Positions 9,970 to 20,073 of a stretch of DNA of 23,628 nt are shown here, one piece after another (within the stretch, counting starts at the first letter, position 1; the number at the start of each line of letters is the position of its first letter). Under the pieces are notes generated by a model. That model worked only from the letters and a program-made list of their open reading frames with translations, made no database searches and was not told the DNA's origin. Source of the DNA: a virus. The stretch is from IMG/VR virus record IMGVR_UViG_3300007640_000246, positions 1 through 23,628 of that record; one strand, given 5' to 3'. The position numbers and the translations under genes are program-made.

Positions 9970-10198
9970 GTGCTTCTCCTTTTGCTACGTCATAGAGTAC
10001 GTTCTTGAGGAACATGGTTTCTGCCATGAGCGCCTCGTTCTGTTCCTTGGTTTGGGTGAGGGTCAGCTTGGCTGAGTACAGTCGCTGCTCAGCTTTCACC
10101 AACCGCTTGGTGGTTGTGGTCAGCCTCCGTTGTTGGAAGCCGACCCAGAAAATGGCGACCACGAGGGCCGCCATCAGGGTAAGGGTTGCTTCGATCAT
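9902..10198 (-). CDS. Small membrane protein with coiled-coil domain
   Basis: 98 residues. Residues 4-21 form one hydrophobic segment (ATLTLMAALVVAIFWVGF) followed by a positive stretch (QQRRLTTTTKRLVK). This predicts a type II inner-membrane protein with the C-terminal part in the cytoplasm by the positive-inside rule, unless inverted. Residues 30-70 are a heptad-like helix (KAEQRLYSAKLTLTQTKEQNEALMAETMFLK). The layout superficially resembles i-spanins, but the gene lies in the replication array and no partner lipoprotein is visible, so lysis is unlikely. ATG 10198 is coupled to the upstream stop (ATGA). It overlaps the next gene by 68 bases. Confidence 0.72.
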   Translation of the reverse strand: MIEATLTLMAALVVAIFWVGFQQRRLTTTTKRLVKAEQRLYSAKLTLTQTKEQNEALMAETMFLKNVLYDVAKGEAHVWIEDDELRATRLPAGETPIH

Positions 10199-11313
10199 TT
10201 GTCCACCATGGGGACAACCTCACCGAACGGTGCGTCAGTTGCGCCAGTCGTCACCCAAAGCACAGGGCAGCTAGGTTCGTCACCGAAATCGTGGCAGTAG
10301 AGATCGGTGAGGAACACGATACCAGCGGGGTTGATGTCGTTCTCCTCGATGTACTCGAACACAGGGCTGAAGGCTGTACCGCCACCACCACGAGGATTGA
10401 ACTCGAACTCGTCGTCACGTGTCAGGGTATCAACAGCACAGACCTCATGGCTGAAGAAGATCAGGTGCAGTTTGGACGGCTTGCCGTCCTCGTGTACTAC
10501 ACGGCACTCGGCACCGTACTGGTTGGCCTCGTCTTGGCTGATCGAGCCGGACATATCCACGGCGAACACCAACTCACCAAGGACCTCGCCACTGACAGTG
10601 GGCATGTACAGCCCTTGTGACAGGAACCTGCGGTTAGGTCGGGCGAAGGTACGCTGGTCGTTCTTGGCTTTCTGGACGAACATGTGCAGTCGTTCACGCC
10701 AGTCCACCTTGGGCTTGAGTACCTCATCCACCAGCCGGGCCATGTTGGCGCTGAGTTTACCCATCATCTTGGCAGCCTGTGCAGCTTGGGCCACCTTGAT
10801 CTTCCACTCGGCAGCCTCTTGGGCCTGCTCAGCTTGGCCACCCTCGCCGTCTTGCAGGTCGTTACCAGTACCACCCGGGCCGTCGTCCTCACCGTCACCG
10901 TCAGCATCTGGCAACAGGTTGTAGATACCGTCGGACGTGCCGCCGCCGTTGGTGTAGATGTTCTTGTCGAGGCAGCCACCCTCGATGAACTTACCGATGC
11001 CCTCATCCACCAGCAGTTGGTTGATTACGAAGTCAGCGGCCTTGTTCCACTTCTTGGGGTCACGGGCACCCCGTCGGTAGTTGTGCTCCAGCATGGGGTG
11101 CAGACACTCGTGAGCCACGAGGAACTTGAGTTCCTCGTCAGTGAGCGGCTCGATGAAGTCGGGGTTATACAGGACACGCTTGCCGTTGGTGGCAGCGGTC
11201 GGCACCTCGTCGCTCAGTGACATAGGCATGTTGAGCGCCACGCTGCCAATGAAGGGGTGTTCCAAGATCAGGCTGGTCTTGGCCTTGCTCAGTCGTTTCA
11301 TCAGGTCCATCAT
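10195..11313 (-). CDS. Metallopeptidase-like / VWA domain protein (CobT/DUF2201-type partner of MoxR ATPase)
   Basis: 372 residues. The N-terminal domain has a zincin motif, H68-E69-x2-H72 (VAHECLHPML). An acidic Gly/Asp-rich linker spans 133-170. The C-terminal VWA-like domain (about 240-372) keeps the MIDAS signature D253-x-S255-x-S257 (FAVDMSGSIS), with a later TD motif in VFLTDLYC. This is the architecture of the DUF2201 (COG3864) proteins that work with MoxR-type AAA+ ATPases. The partner ATPase is encoded upstream at 12780-13769. The pair likely remodels or inserts metal into a target protein, but its role in phages is unknown. The start is ATG 11313 or 11310, with GGGAG upstream. Confidence 0.87.
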   Translation of the reverse strand: MMDLMKRLSKAKTSLILEHPFIGSVALNMPMSLSDEVPTAATNGKRVLYNPDFIEPLTDEELKFLVAHECLHPMLEHNYRRGARDPKKWNKAADFVINQLLVDEGIGKFIEGGCLDKNIYTNGGGTSDGIYNLLPDADGDGEDDGPGGTGNDLQDGEGGQAEQAQEAAEWKIKVAQAAQAAKMMGKLSANMARLVDEVLKPKVDWRERLHMFVQKAKNDQRTFARPNRRFLSQGLYMPTVSGEVLGELVFAVDMSGSISQDEANQYGAECRVVHEDGKPSKLHLIFFSHEVCAVDTLTRDDEFEFNPRGGGGTAFSPVFEYIEENDINPAGIVFLTDLYCHDFGDEPSCPVLWVTTGATDAPFGEVVPMVDK

Positions 11314-12544: not shown

Positions 12545-12793
12545 TCAATCCTTCTTGAAAGAGGGCGCAGCACCGGTCAGCCGGAGATACGCTTGGTAGG
12601 CCAGCACCTTGCGAGGGTACTTGCTGGCAACGAACTGGTCCCACGTGGTGGGGCCAGTGGTGTAGACCTTGAACCCAGAGGGTTTGATCTGGTTCCATTC
12701 ATTGGAGAGGAGCCTGAGGTCCTCGTCACTGACCTGCCCGGTGGTACGTAACCACCGGACAAACGTCGGACGTTGGGGTTCAGAACAGGACAT
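12545..12793 (-). CDS. 82-residue phage protein, unknown
   Basis: Starts MSCSEPQRPTFVRWLRTTGQ at 12793 and overlaps the end of the AAA+ ATPase gene by 14 bases. The text PTFVRWLRTTG, then SDEDLRLLSNEWN, then TTWDQFVASKYPRKVLAYQAYLR suggests a small three- or four-helix domain. It vaguely recalls YozE/SAM-like folds, in which a W/F-x-FV segment precedes a YxxYL helix. It sits within the MoxR/VWA module and probably serves it, but no function is known to me. No good Shine-Dalgarno site is visible, which fits translational coupling to the ATPase gene. Confidence 0.68.
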   Translation of the reverse strand: MSCSEPQRPTFVRWLRTTGQVSDEDLRLLSNEWNQIKPSGFKVYTTGPTTWDQFVASKYPRKVLAYQAYLRLTGAAPSFKKD

Positions 12794-13769
12794 CTTGGTG
12801 GCCCACTGCCCACTTGGTGAAGGCTTGTGTGTTGGCCAGTTCGGGCTTCTTACGGACAGCATAGCTGACGCTGAGCACTGAGAACTCCGCTGGCATCCGG
12901 CTGGTGTATGTCACAACACGTTCCATGTTACCCTCACTGGCACGCTCAGCGATAGCACCGGACAGGGCGTAGAGTGTCGCCGGATCAGTCGGCACGTCAG
13001 CCGTGTCGGGGTTCATGAGGATGGCGTCAGGGTTGGGCAGCTTACGGAAGATACGCATAAAGCCCACGAACTCAGCCGCAGCACCCTCACCAACGGCACC
13101 CTTGAAGCACTCGTACTCAGCCTCGGCAGGCACCTTGCCAAGCACTGCGGATACACCTTCGACCCATGAACGAGGTGTGGGGTTCACATCACGCTGAGGG
13201 TCGAAGTCATGCAGCAAGTGAGGCCGGAACCGGATGAACGCAATGACCTCTGGTGCCACGTTGTGGTCGATCATCCAGCTTGTGCTGTCGTCGAGGTGTG
13301 TCTCGAACTCAAGCACCGTCTCACGGTTACGAAGGTGGCTCAGGACACGGTTAGCACCAGCCCTGTCAGACTGACGGTTACCAGTCGAGATCACCGTCCA
13401 GCCATCGGCCAACGGTTTGCCGTGTAGAGTACGGGCTTGCTGGATGTTGGCCAGCACCTTCTGTAGGTCGGCATTGGCTTGGTTGCGGTCGTCGAACAGC
13501 AGTACACCACCGTTCTCAGTACCGGCCTTGCCCTTGTAGGGGAACCAGTCGGGCAGTTTGTACTCAAACCCGTTGTCCGTCGGGTAGGGAATACCAAAGT
13601 CCTCGACCAGCATGGTCGGCATGTGCCGTTCGACAATGGGCAGCCCCAGTTCCTCAGCCACCTCGTGGACGATGGTGGTCTTACCACCACCCGGTGCCCC
13701 CTCAATAGCGACGGAACGACCAGCGGGAATGAGAGCCGAGAGTGTGGATTTCAGCAGAGTAGCACGCAT
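12780..13769 (-). CDS. MoxR/CobS-type AAA+ ATPase with unusual Walker B
   Basis: 329 residues. Walker A is GAPGGGKT (24-31), sensor 1 is around N131 (VISTGNRQSDRAG) and the C-terminal lid is helical. Walker B reads VLLFDDRNQAN, with D93-D94 where MoxR-type ATPases normally have Asp-Glu; the missing glutamate is the usual water-activating residue, so hydrolysis may be slow or altered. The family works with VWA proteins as a chaperone or metal-insertion machine, and a VWA protein is encoded at 10195-11313. ATG 13769 has AAGGAG upstream. The gene opens the module made of itself, 12545-12793, 11686-12540, 11510-11686, 11310-11510 and 10195-11313. Confidence 0.88.
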   Translation of the reverse strand: MRATLLKSTLSALIPAGRSVAIEGAPGGGKTTIVHEVAEELGLPIVERHMPTMLVEDFGIPYPTDNGFEYKLPDWFPYKGKAGTENGGVLLFDDRNQANADLQKVLANIQQARTLHGKPLADGWTVISTGNRQSDRAGANRVLSHLRNRETVLEFETHLDDSTSWMIDHNVAPEVIAFIRFRPHLLHDFDPQRDVNPTPRSWVEGVSAVLGKVPAEAEYECFKGAVGEGAAAEFVGFMRIFRKLPNPDAILMNPDTADVPTDPATLYALSGAIAERASEGNMERVVTYTSRMPAEFSVLSVSYAVRKKPELANTQAFTKWAVGHQDVLF

Positions 13770-13790: not shown

Positions 13791-13958
13791 TCAGTTGTCG
13801 TCGTAACGAGCGTGGTCAGGCCCCAGCACGATGCAGGAACCGTCGTGACGATCCCTGACCCGCTTGGCCTCCTTCTTGTCGTCATAGTACACCGGCTCAC
13901 CGGTACGCTCAGACACCACGAGGCTGCCGTTGGGCAGCCTTACAGCAAACAGTTTCAT
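13791..13958 (-). CDS. 55-residue early protein, unknown
   Basis: MKLFAVRLPNGSLVVSERTG continues to a charged EAKRVRDRHDG helix and ends in RYDDN. GGAGA stands four bases upstream of ATG 13958, directly after a hammerhead ribozyme (13981-14051), and that ribozyme-linked site decides the start; the longer open frame runs through the ribozyme. A short two-strand plus helix protein. It is the last ribozyme-flanked gene before the AAA+ module. Function unknown. Confidence 0.75.
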   Translation of the reverse strand: MKLFAVRLPNGSLVVSERTGEPVYYDDKKEAKRVRDRHDGSCIVLGPDHARYDDN

Positions 13959-13980
13959 GTTGTCTCCACTTGTTTGTGTT

Positions 13981-14051
13981 TGGCTTGTCTCATCAGTGAG
14001 CAGGGAGCCACCCTGCTCAGACAGACCACCGGTGAGGCGGTCTGTTTCGAC
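13981..14051 (-). ncRNA. Type II hammerhead ribozyme, copy 1 (between early genes)
   Basis: Read on the minus strand. Stem II 5' strand GUC is 14051-14049, and GAAA is 14048-14045. Stem III is 9 bp (14044-14036 with 14030-14022, one G-U pair, loop UCACC), with A14045 pairing U14021. The cleavage-site C is 14020, so cleavage is expected between 14020 and 14019. Stem I is a perfect 9 bp (14019-14011 with 14005-13997, loop UGGCU). The core CUGAUGA is 13996-13990 and the stem II 3' strand GAC is 13989-13987. AGCCA at 13985-13981 is complementary to the UGGCU loop and predicts a pseudoknot. Stem II is open, so the topology is type II. All invariant core bases are present. It lies between the stop at 14056 and the GGAGA site of the gene starting at 13958. 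Confidence 0.93.
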
Positions 14052-14055
14052 GTTA

Positions 14056-14292
14056 CTAGTTGAGCGGTCCACCACAGTGCGGACAGGTTGCCTCGTCGTA
14101 GTGTTCGTCCTCGAACTCGATATGTGGACCAGTGGGGACACTGAATGCCTCGGCGTTCTGCACGGCGAGTTTCATGAACATCATGCTGTGCAGCAGGTGC
14201 AGGTTCTCATGTCGCTGAATGAACTCACGCACCTCAGCCTTGTCTTGGTCAGTTCCCTTGATGAACTTCTCGAATATCTCTTCAATGGTCAT
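14056..14292 (-). CDS. 78-residue early protein with C-terminal CPHC motif
   Basis: The N-terminal two thirds are helical and charged (IEEIFEKFIKGTDQDKAEVREFIQRHENLHLLHSMMFMKLA). The C-terminus holds EATCPHCGGPLN, one half of a zinc knuckle; a second cysteine pair is missing, so zinc would need dimerisation or histidines (several lie in HENLHLLH). ATG 14292 follows the upstream stop by three bases. The stop TAG at 14058-14056 is four bases from the hammerhead ribozyme. Function unknown; the position in the early block suggests host interaction. Confidence 0.75.
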   Translation of the reverse strand: MTIEEIFEKFIKGTDQDKAEVREFIQRHENLHLLHSMMFMKLAVQNAEAFSVPTGPHIEFEDEHYDEATCPHCGGPLN

Positions 14293-14295
14293 GGC

Positions 14296-15102
14296 TTATC
14301 CAATCCTCTGTATCTGGTTGATGGCGTTCTTGTACTCGTTGTAGCTGTGGAAATACTCGACGGTCTTGGTGCCGTAGCACATCTCGTACTCGTAGACCGC
14401 CTCACGTAGAGACCGCAGTTCGGCGTCCAGAGGGACGCTGTTGGACATACGTCCACTGATCTCAGCCCATCCAGTCTCGCCTTGACGGAGGTACTCAACG
14501 GCTGTTCTGGGTGTCCAACCAAAGGGGCTGGACCCATAACGGTGGCCAAACTCAGCAACACCCAGCTTGATCCGTGTCTCCAACCACAGCTTGAACGTAT
14601 AGTAGTTGGCATCACGTAGGGCTTGGCGGCCCTCTTTACGGTTGAGGTAGGGTACTTCCACGGGCTTAGCACCCTCTACGAGGGTCCAACCGGACTGGTC
14701 TGGCTGGATTACAGCGTAGCTGGGGGTGTGATAGTATCGACCACCCACTTCAGTGATGAGACCGGGACCGTTGTACCGATCTGCCCAGTGAGTATTCACA
14801 TGAGGGCCGAGGATTGACCACATGACACGGTTGGTGAGGACAGAACCGTAAGGGTCGAGGTGTATGGGGTTGTTATACCCATCACCGTTGGCGTCGTAAG
14901 TGATGATGTCAGTCTGGTAGAGCCGGACAATGATGTCACCAGTGGTAGGGTCCTGACGTATAGTCAGGTTGTCATTAGACCGTCGTGCCAGAGGACGGGT
15001 ATCCACAGATCGACCACGGATGGGTTTGATAGCGTTGTACTTGTCGAGAGCCGACTTGTAGCTGAGGATACGGTTGGGAAGTTCAATGTTGCTGCCGAAC
15101 AT
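14296..15102 (-). CDS. 268-residue early protein, unknown
   Basis: Starts MFGSNIELPNRILSYKSALD at 15102, with GGAGA six bases upstream, immediately after hammerhead copy 2. An earlier in-frame start at 15192 would translate through the ribozyme and is rejected. The protein has an N-terminal IKPIRGRSVDTRPLARRSNDN segment, then RLYQTDIITYDANGDG and a beta-rich middle, then an aromatic C-terminal helix region (EYEMCYGTKTVEYFHSYNEYK). The RGRSxDTRPLxxR pattern and YxTDIITY strand recall uncharacterised phage proteins. No enzyme motif is visible. It is the largest of the ribozyme-flanked early genes. Confidence 0.78.
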   Translation of the reverse strand: MFGSNIELPNRILSYKSALDKYNAIKPIRGRSVDTRPLARRSNDNLTIRQDPTTGDIIVRLYQTDIITYDANGDGYNNPIHLDPYGSVLTNRVMWSILGPHVNTHWADRYNGPGLITEVGGRYYHTPSYAVIQPDQSGWTLVEGAKPVEVPYLNRKEGRQALRDANYYTFKLWLETRIKLGVAEFGHRYGSSPFGWTPRTAVEYLRQGETGWAEISGRMSNSVPLDAELRSLREAVYEYEMCYGTKTVEYFHSYNEYKNAINQIQRIG

Positions 15103-15115
15103 GAGTGTTCTCCAT

Positions 15116-15186
15116 TGGCTTGTCTCGTCAGTGTGCTGGTAGCCAGCCAGCACAGACAGACCACCGGTGAGGTGGTCTGTTTCGAC
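15116..15186 (-). ncRNA. Type II hammerhead ribozyme, copy 2
   Basis: Minus strand. GUC is 15186-15184, and GAAA is 15183-15180. Stem III is a perfect 9 bp (15179-15171 with 15165-15157, loop UCACC), and A15180 pairs U15156. The cleavage-site C is 15155, cut expected between 15155 and 15154. Stem I is 8 bp (15154-15147 with 15139-15132) with a 7-base loop containing UGGCU (15145-15141). The core CUGACGA is 15131-15125, and the stem II 3' strand GAC is 15124-15122, extended by one U-A pair (15187/15121). AGCCA at 15120-15116 complements the loop. Compared with copy 1, stem I has compensatory changes in several pairs and stem III replaces a G-U with A-U, which supports selection on structure. 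GGAGA (15113-15109) follows directly. Confidence 0.93.
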
Positions 15187-15188
15187 AG

Positions 15189-15506
15189 TCACAGGTTGAG
15201 ATACTTGGCGACAGAGTAGGCGTTCACAGACAGCCTCACGACCATCGTGTTGGGCTTATGGTCAGGGAAGTAACCAGTGGCTTCCCAACCAGCGGTGCCA
15301 AGGGACGTAGTACCGTCCCACATATTGGCCCTGACCATATCCCGAATATGGTCGATGGAGGATCGACCGGGGTTGATGACCTCCAGCACCTTGGCTGTCT
15401 GTTCGAGACTGTACTCGTCGAACTCTATGTTGAACCCTTGGTTGATGCAGTCAGCCTTACGCTGCCATTCATCACGGATTTGCTGTTCAGTGGTGGAAGA
15501 AAGCAT
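15189..15506 (-). CDS. 105-residue early protein, unknown
   Basis: Starts MLSSTTEQQIRDEWQRKADC at 15506, nine bases after a GGAGAA site that follows hammerhead copy 3. The N-terminal half is helical (EQTAKVLEVI, IDHIRDMVRANMWDG). The C-terminal half has a GWEATGYFPDHKPNTMVVRLSVNAYSV strand pair. The stop TGA at 15191-15189 lies two bases before hammerhead copy 2, so the gene is bracketed by two ribozymes and could be released as a monocistronic mRNA. Function unknown. Confidence 0.76.
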   Translation of the reverse strand: MLSSTTEQQIRDEWQRKADCINQGFNIEFDEYSLEQTAKVLEVINPGRSSIDHIRDMVRANMWDGTTSLGTAGWEATGYFPDHKPNTMVVRLSVNAYSVAKYLNL

Positions 15507-15522
15507 GTGTCAAGTTCTCCAT

Positions 15523-15586
15523 TGGCTTGTCTCATCAGCACAGCAGGAGCCACCTGCTGTGGACCACCCCGTAGGGTGGTTTCGAC
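15523..15586 (-). ncRNA. Type II hammerhead ribozyme, copy 3 (overlaps a stop codon)
   Basis: Minus strand. GUC is 15586-15584, and its G is the last base of the upstream TAG stop codon. GAAA is 15583-15580. Stem III is 6 bp (15579-15574 with 15569-15564) closed by a UACG tetraloop (UNCG type), and A15580 pairs U15563. The cleavage-site C is 15562, cut expected between 15562 and 15561. Stem I is a perfect 9 bp (15561-15553 with 15547-15539, loop UGGCU). The core CUGAUGA is 15538-15532 and the stem II strand GAC is 15531-15529. AGCCA at 15527-15523 complements the loop. Stem III is shorter and of unrelated sequence to the other copies, yet the core is unchanged. GGAGAA follows at 15520-15515 and serves the gene starting at 15506. 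Confidence 0.93.
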
Positions 15587-15714
15587 TAGGAAACCCATAA
15601 GAAGTTGGTGTTGTTAGAGTAACGACGCTGGAAGTCAGCGAAGGACACATGGTCATACCACACTGTCTCACCAGACAGAGGGCAGCGAAGGTAAACATCA
15701 CCGTAGGTGTTCAT
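15586..15714 (-). CDS. 42-residue early protein, unknown
   Basis: A short gene: MNTYGDVYLRCPLSGETVWY, then DHVSFADFQRRYSNNTNF, ending LWVS. ATG 15714 overlaps the preceding stop as ATGA, and the TAG stop shares its G with hammerhead copy 3. Coupling at one end and the ribozyme at the other make this a real cistron despite its size. Rich in aromatic residues and without hydrophobic segments, so soluble. Function unknown. Confidence 0.7.
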   Translation of the reverse strand: MNTYGDVYLRCPLSGETVWYDHVSFADFQRRYSNNTNFLWVS

Positions 15715-15980
15715 AGTTCGATCTCCAGAGGGGTTGAGTTACGGTTGTAGTGGATGTGAAGGTGGGTATAGCCATACCGCTTGAGGTTACGGACCTCGTC
15801 AACAGCGACGATGGAGCCACAGTAGGGGCTCGACTGAGTGGTGATGACGAACTCTTTACCAACAGCCCAGTCATAACCAGCATCGGCTTGGTGGAGGTAG
15901 GTCCGCCGATAAGGGCGGACCGAAAGTATACGATGGTCCTGTTCTGGGAACAGGTCGGTAAGTTTACACCAGACAGTCAC
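15711..15980 (-). CDS. 89-residue early protein, unknown (GTG start)
   Basis: Starts with GTG at 15980 (MTVWCKLTDLFPEQ), overlapping the previous stop as GTGA, with a strong AAGGAGG site upstream. Residues include RPYRRTYLHQADAGYDWAVGKEFVITT and a final strand YTHLHIHYNRNSTPLEIEL. The mixture of strands with a C-terminal basic patch suggests a compact soluble protein. Its end shares the ATGA with the 42-residue gene. No family recognised. Confidence 0.75.
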   Translation of the reverse strand: MTVWCKLTDLFPEQDHRILSVRPYRRTYLHQADAGYDWAVGKEFVITTQSSPYCGSIVAVDEVRNLKRYGYTHLHIHYNRNSTPLEIEL

Positions 15981-16204: not shown

Positions 16205-16331
16205 AGGAAGTCTCCACATTGACATGTTAAGTTAATACCACCGGGGCTGGCCCGACGGCGAAGCCAAGTTCGCAAAATCCGCCGCCGGTGTCAAGTTTGG
16301 TGGCCAAGCCCTTGATTTTGCTCGATTTTTC

Positions 16332-16351: not shown

Positions 16352-16698
16352 TGAAATCATTACAACTATCTATTTAGATAGTGTATGGTATTCGTGTAAG
16401 TAATTGATTTTACAGCAACTATCTAACTATCTATCTATCTATTGAAAACTAAACGCGCTATGTTTTTAGGGGGGTGTGACTCGTTTACTCGCAAGACCAA
16501 AATCGGCTACGGAGAAAGGGTAAAAAAAAATAGATAGATAGATAGTTAGATAAAATAGAAATGTAAACACAGACTAAACACACTAACCCGTTGGTTTTTA
16601 AGAGAAATCCCGTGGACTTTACACGCTAACTGCTGTGTCAAGTTAGCAAACTATACTATCTATACACGAAAAAAGTTAGATAGTTGCAATGATTTCAA
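16351..16698. repeat. Outer inverted repeat, 22-bp arms with one mismatch
   Basis: The arm at 16351-16372 matches the reverse complement of 16677-16698 at 21 of 22 positions (core TTGAAATCATT then CAACTATCTA). The left arm runs into an 18-base palindrome-like element, ACTATCTA-TT-TAGATAGT (16365-16382). The arms enclose about 300 bases and the inner inverted repeat. Confidence 0.85.
16420..16552. repeat. Inner inverted repeat, perfect 24-bp arms built of TATC/GATA units
   Basis: 16420-16443 is the exact reverse complement of 16529-16552. The arms are made of tetranucleotide units (CTAT / GATA). The 85-base spacer contains a T-run followed by GGGGGG (about 16461-16475) and an A-run. Such a large symmetric element may bind an initiator or repressor, or form a cruciform. 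Confidence 0.9.
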
Positions 16699-19972: not shown

Positions 19973-20036
19973 TAGTCTCAACGCGTCACGGGACCAACTC
20001 CTCCCTGTTGGAACTTGCTCAGACACGCCTCACTGA

Positions 20037-20073
20037 CCCCCGCTGGCTGTCACCCGGCGGGGGTTTTTCTTTG
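20037..20073 (+). terminator. Rho-independent terminator after the large terminase
   Basis: A 10-bp stem (20037-20046 with 20054-20063, one T-G pair), seven-base loop and TTTTTCTTT tail (20064-20072). GC-rich and strong. It separates the terminase transcript from the portal operon. Confidence 0.93.

Follow-up and report, generated by a model that had tools for sequence, protein, structure and literature searches.

Three segments on the minus strand of a phage operon, designated P1, P2 and P3, are almost certainly type II hammerhead ribozymes, and their constitutive self-cleavage would probably divide the leftward polycistronic mRNA into shorter segments. The stretch analysed, hereafter the window, is the 23,628-nt IMG/VR record IMGVR_UViG_3300007640_000246 (positions 1 to 23,628), which is probably a fragment of a larger genome. 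No DNA-level relative of the window was found among 50,697 named phages, and the terminase closest to that of the window, from Pseudomonas phage Rollin, has 45% identity. The finding matters because the role of bacterial and phage hammerheads was called an open question in a 2017 review, which also noted the link of prokaryotic hammerheads with phages (PMC6155905).

Candidate type II hammerheads in the leftward operon

Analysis of the window with Rfam cmscan revealed minus-strand matches to RF02276 (Hammerhead_II) at 15521-15587 for P1 (46.4 bits, E 8.7e-07), 13978-14052 for P3 (41.0 bits, E 2.3e-05) and 15114-15187 for P2 (33.8 bits, E 0.0018 for the window). The gathering score of RF02276 is 37 bits, which places P1 and P3 above the cut-off and P2 just below it; P2 is orthologous to full RF02276 matches in relatives, such as that of L020 (37.8 bits). 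A strict descriptor, comprising the GAA core, an A-U pair closing stem III, H17, CUGANGA and three helices, gave exactly three matches over the window, corresponding to P1, P2 and P3, and none in 0.96 Mb of shuffled sequence. The ribozymes extend over 15529-15586 (P1), 15121-15187 (P2) and 13987-14051 (P3), all on the minus strand, with predicted cleavage at 15562/15561, 15155/15154 and 14020/14019, respectively. Weak Rfam matches to sRNA162, ceN61 and anti-hemB in the window lie far below their cut-offs and were dismissed as chance.

All three copies contain the core GAA and CUGANGA sequences, the A15.1-U16.1 pair and an H at position 17, the cleavage position, where each has a C. Stems I and III are closed, while stem II, a 3-bp helix (GUC/GAC), is open. 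Hairpins I and III recur in free folds, with z values of -2.2 to -4.2, and a 5-bp pseudoknot connects loop I (UGGCU) with the tail 3' of stem II (AGCCA). Each copy is minimal in its stems and loops (58-67 nt altogether), with no inserted aptamer. The genes upstream of P1, P2 and P3 end at 15586, 15189 and 14056, and the next genes start at 15506, 15102 and 13958, each preceded by GGAG. Assignment to type II hammerheads is thus based on the covariance model, the core, covariation, the pseudoknot and position taken together.

These results agree in most respects with a preliminary description of the DNA, which had proposed three minus-strand type II hammerheads with all invariant core bases, each placed after the stop codon of one gene and ahead of the Shine-Dalgarno (SD) site of the next, and with 5' ends at 15561, 15154 and 14019. 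The RF02276 matches and the descriptor confirm the identity, the gene coordinates and GGAG sequences agree with the placement, and the descriptor gives the same bonds (after 15562, 15155 and 14020). The Rfam comparison that it had suggested bore out P1 and P3, while P2 fell just short of the cut-off, and the pseudoknot had been overlooked. Its claim that serial use in one operon was unreported proved wrong, as Perreault et al. 2011 had already described prophages in which genes are flanked by multiple, clustered hammerheads; one of these clusters, a triple array from Agrobacterium tumefaciens, was shown to cleave both in vitro and in E. coli (PMC3088659). With several hammerheads flanking single genes or short blocks in one operon, the window is a further case of this known kind.

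The leftward operon begins near 16225 on the minus strand, with 4-nt overlaps between several of its first genes (15977-15980, 15711-15714). Upstream of P1 lies a 42-aa ORF (15586-15714, minus strand) with a counterpart in L013, whose TAG stop codon overlaps base 1 of P1 stem II. The order then continues with P1, a 105-aa gene of family c17 (15189-15506), P2, a 268-aa gene of family c13 (14296-15102), a 78-aa gene (14056-14292), P3, a 55-aa gene (13791-13958) and a MoxR-like AAA ATPase (phrog_1297, 12780-13769), all on the minus strand. Beyond the ATPase are genes for a VWA-like DUF2201 protein (10195-11313, minus strand), a family A DNA polymerase and an SNF2-type helicase, while the opposite arm, carrying the terminase and an SU10-like portal, diverges from the hammerhead-bearing operon. 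Given this gene content and the divergence from terminase and portal, it is plausible that the operon comprises early genes. Searches of PHROGs, Pfam and PADLOC gave no match for any small gene adjoining the ribozymes. The model of the 268-aa protein was fair (pLDDT 84.8), its fold-search matches were uncharacterised phage proteins only, and nothing named was matched in either protein family or fold searches for its function. The model of the 105-aa protein was poor (pLDDT 66.6).

Covariation and distribution among relatives

The stems had also been described beforehand as covarying between copies. Among the three window copies alone this covariation is modest, since stem III of P2 and P3 is nearly the same, but it becomes overwhelming when relatives are included. 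In the clade of the window (20 ribozymes), the most variable stem positions are paired in 95-100% of cases, compared with 42-76% expected under independence, and up to six pair types occur at positions of conserved pairing. The variety of pair types is the better evidence of the two, because the descriptor itself requires part of the pairing. At a pseudoknot position in the clade, C-G switches to U-A (15 vs 3 of 20), and loop-tail complementarity of four or more bases was present in 82%, compared with 27% with shuffled tails. The predicted stems and pseudoknot change in a compensatory way among relatives.

A DNA pattern built on loop I, CUGANGA and the tail, which make up the 3' half of the motif, matched at least 119 stretches of IMG/VR. 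The full descriptor was satisfied by 105 of the 119 distinct matches listed with enough upstream sequence; the pattern did not require the 5' half. At least 199 distinct ribozymes were collected, 20 in the clade and 179 others. Among the matches listed, 146 of the 185 distinct ribozymes with enough flanking sequence have a stop no more than 70 nt upstream and an SD site and start no more than 70 nt downstream, a placement found for 7.4% of random positions, and the median gap from the upstream stop to the ribozyme is 2 nt. Several contigs among the matches listed carry five to ten hammerheads each.

The preliminary description had suggested a search of related phages for the same loci; P2 has orthologues in several relatives, and in ten a hammerhead directly precedes the ATPase gene. 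A scan with the ATPase identified 228 relatives, from which 80 loci were kept. Of 50 records searched with the Rfam model, 18 yielded a hammerhead match with E ≤ 0.01, and almost all of these 18 belong to the closest relatives; the match in the L053 record is marginal, at 19 bits. On one side of the ATPase tree, hammerheads are present in 18 of 20 rows, compared with 0 of 23 by the descriptor on the other side, where L053 sits. Two rows on the hammerhead side have none: L008, a fragment, shares its ATPase with L007, which does have a hammerhead in its record, and L021 is nested within the ribozyme clade and, by this placement, has lost its ribozyme. L032 carries just one hammerhead, which is a different one and sits 2.6 kb upstream of the ATPase gene; it may represent a separate acquisition. 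As a finding new to this study, the predicted ribozymes mark one clade of uncultured phages of ~55 kb. Most relatives at 75-80% ATPase identity have no hammerheads, which indicates that the trait is dispensable.

Comparison of the P2 junction across relatives revealed that the downstream gene is always of the 268-aa family, while the upstream position is occupied by the 105-aa family, an 89-aa family or a small insert. The putative ribozyme at P2 therefore travels with the downstream gene through turnover of the upstream gene, which is also new here. L012 and L015 have no ribozyme at this junction, and their 105-aa and 268-aa genes share a single base (TAATG). In L021, an 11-bp GC-rich terminator-like hairpin followed by a U run (L021:275-302, plus strand) precedes the 268-aa gene in place of P2. 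One hairpin and two relatives with overlaps suggest three interchangeable junction elements, of which a gene overlap would keep the genes coupled, and a terminator-like hairpin or a ribozyme would separate them. A possible ribozyme remnant between the c17 and c13 genes of L012 (ACAAGCCAA before the SD site) was dropped, as it aligns with ordinary c17 C-terminal codons in L011 and L015.

The strength of stems I and III as hairpins, and the presence in L021 of a plain terminator-like hairpin at the P2 junction, would also suit a reading in which P1, P2 and P3 are hairpins only, acting as RNase III sites, attenuators or barriers with no ribozyme activity. This is scarcely credible, since mere hairpins do not need the conserved unpaired GAA, CUGANGA and H17, nor the pseudoknot; furthermore, no minus-strand terminator was called at any of the three sites, and neither stem III nor stem I is followed by a U run.

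Gene content near the sites differs among relatives, as would fit ribozymes that are repeated joints for gene exchange or small selfish inserts, with cores that let cassettes recombine and cleavage that merely spares the neighbouring genes. Stem III is near-identical in P2 and P3 of the window and is common to P1 and P2 of L013, and stem I of P2 matches that of its L013 orthologue, which suggests that stem III has been exchanged between copies inside one genome. However, the compensatory changes in stems and pseudoknot demand selection on the RNA, and P2 is kept with its downstream gene despite turnover upstream. Although this account fits better than the other alternatives, followed in order by regulated switches, circular mRNAs and plain hairpins, we consider it unlikely as the main explanation.

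Arrays in cultured Streptomyces phages

Two of the array-bearing IMG/VR records were identical, over the stretches compared, to cultured Streptomyces phages. Streptomyces phage Sentinel (L199, G054; NC_054658) has ten Rfam type II matches in one arm, at 40,591-46,418 of 50,272 bp, and Streptomyces phage Celia (L200, G051; NC_054655) likewise has ten in one arm, at 41,297-49,021 of 50,493 bp. No ribozyme feature is annotated at the array sites in the public records of either phage. A literature search, with little coverage of subscription papers, retrieved no report of hammerheads in Streptomyces phages, which is not proof of novelty. Predicted type II arrays of up to ten copies per genome, including those in cultured Streptomyces phages, are reported here as new.

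Celia has 21 annotated junctions, of which 11 measure 50 nt or more; a hammerhead is present in nine of these 11. The tenth ribozyme overlaps an annotated gene start by 34 nt, and that start may have been placed too far upstream. Nine filled junctions, plus a tenth site at a possibly misannotated start, fit a more general reading, which we put forward tentatively and hold to be somewhat short of an even chance, that some phages rely mainly on hammerheads to punctuate one arm of the genome, with a ribozyme at nearly every junction wider than ~50 nt. If so, a long transcript would be converted into gene-sized mRNAs by ribozymes in place of the terminators, promoters or RNase III sites used elsewhere. 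The presence of ten-copy arrays in cultured phages makes segmentation testable in ordinary infections.

Predicted segmentation of the leftward mRNA

The arrangement in the window is consistent with a pathway in which the three hammerheads are transcribed within the leftward polycistronic mRNA, and each would fold through stems I, II and III and the loop I-tail pseudoknot, followed by a single self-cleavage just 5' of stem I. The hairpin of stem III would close the upstream piece, leaving a 2',3'-cyclic phosphate at its 3' end, and the downstream piece would have a 5'-OH and open with the hairpin of stem I, with the next start codon ~25 nt beyond the ribozyme. Cleavage and these end groups at P1, P2 and P3 are what we infer from known hammerhead chemistry. 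Each gene or gene pair would thereby receive a uniform leader and structured ends of its own, allowing stability and translation to be set piecewise with no extra promoter or terminator; these effects on the RNA we likewise infer. Segmentation is supported by the L021 hairpin, another 3'-end-forming element at the P2 junction, and by the retention of P2 with its downstream gene while the upstream gene varies. It also has precedent in the cleavage of clustered arrays in vitro, and of the triple array in E. coli (PMC3088659), and in the engineered insulator RiboJ (PMC7536230). On the other hand, given the position of the upstream stop, terminating ribosomes could hinder ribozyme folding, which counts against the proposal.

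In pseudoknot-free folds of cleaved and uncleaved RNA, computed SD exposure after cleavage mostly improved at P1, worsened at P2 and was little changed at P3. Unmasking of the ribosome-binding site was rejected as a switch for want of a consistent effect, and the inconsistency favours segment ends and stability over translation switching. The same result bears on regulation of cleavage by a ligand or protein, which would set the downstream gene on or off. Cleaved and uncleaved RNA could differ in stability, and salt-dependent control has been discussed for hammerheads of the HF1/HF2 type (PMC3088659). With no inserted aptamer in minimal ribozymes of 58-67 nt, and no consistent change in SD exposure, regulated switching is quite improbable.

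RtcB-type ligases join 2',3'-cyclic phosphate and 5'-OH ends. Hammerhead cleavage leaves ends of this chemistry, and the piece between P1 and P2 contains a complete gene with its SD site, so that pieces between ribozymes, such as this 407-nt piece with the 105-aa gene, might be ligated into circular mRNAs. This outcome is very improbable, as spliced or circular products were sought in other arrays by Perreault et al. 2011 and none were found (PMC3088659).

Segmentation by constitutive cleavage, the reading preferred here, resembles several known systems in part. Like intrinsic terminators between phage genes, of which the L021 element at the same junction is a likeness, the ribozymes would supply a hairpin 3' end; unlike them, they have no U run, and transcription would be expected to continue, with the cut coming after synthesis. 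In T7 early mRNA, RNase III cuts between genes and leaves hairpin ends. The window would work in a similar way, with intergenic cuts in a polycistronic phage mRNA, except that signal and catalyst would be one RNA, with no host enzyme. RiboJ also places a hammerhead before the ribosome-binding site, so that the RNA upstream is cut away and the transcript keeps a constant, structured 5' end; in E. coli, RiboJ reportedly cleaves with efficiencies near 0.9, and insulators of this type are said to make the 5' UTR uniform and to increase stability (PMC7536230). RiboJ is, however, engineered, has an added hairpin and sits after a promoter, whereas the window ribozymes are intergenic and would also form the 3' end of the upstream mRNA.

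The closest known system is the type II hammerhead family RF02276 itself, for which Perreault et al. 2011 described the architecture and the common loop I-3' tail pseudoknot, and proposed that long phage transcripts are cut into operon- or gene-length mRNAs (PMC3088659). The window shares with that family the core, the open-stem-II permutation, the pseudoknot, a location between phage genes and clusters that include a triple array. It differs in belonging to a phage group without a near named relative, in a position fixed relative to the downstream gene, and in giving way, in relatives, to a terminator-like hairpin or to overlapping genes. This comparative pattern, in which the ribozyme follows the downstream gene and is replaced by a hairpin or overlaps, yields specific predictions on mRNA segmentation.

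Two further features were observed in the window. The divergent intergenic region (16364-16687) contains many CTATCTA/TAGATAG repeats and a perfect 24-nt inverted repeat (16420-16443 / 16529-16552), and is possibly an origin or a regulator-binding region. The interval from the terminase gene to the portal gene holds a terminator-like hairpin (20035-20065, plus strand; CCCCCGC...GCGGGGG then TTTTTCTTTGGG), which coincides with the weak anti-hemB match and resembles the hairpin of L021.
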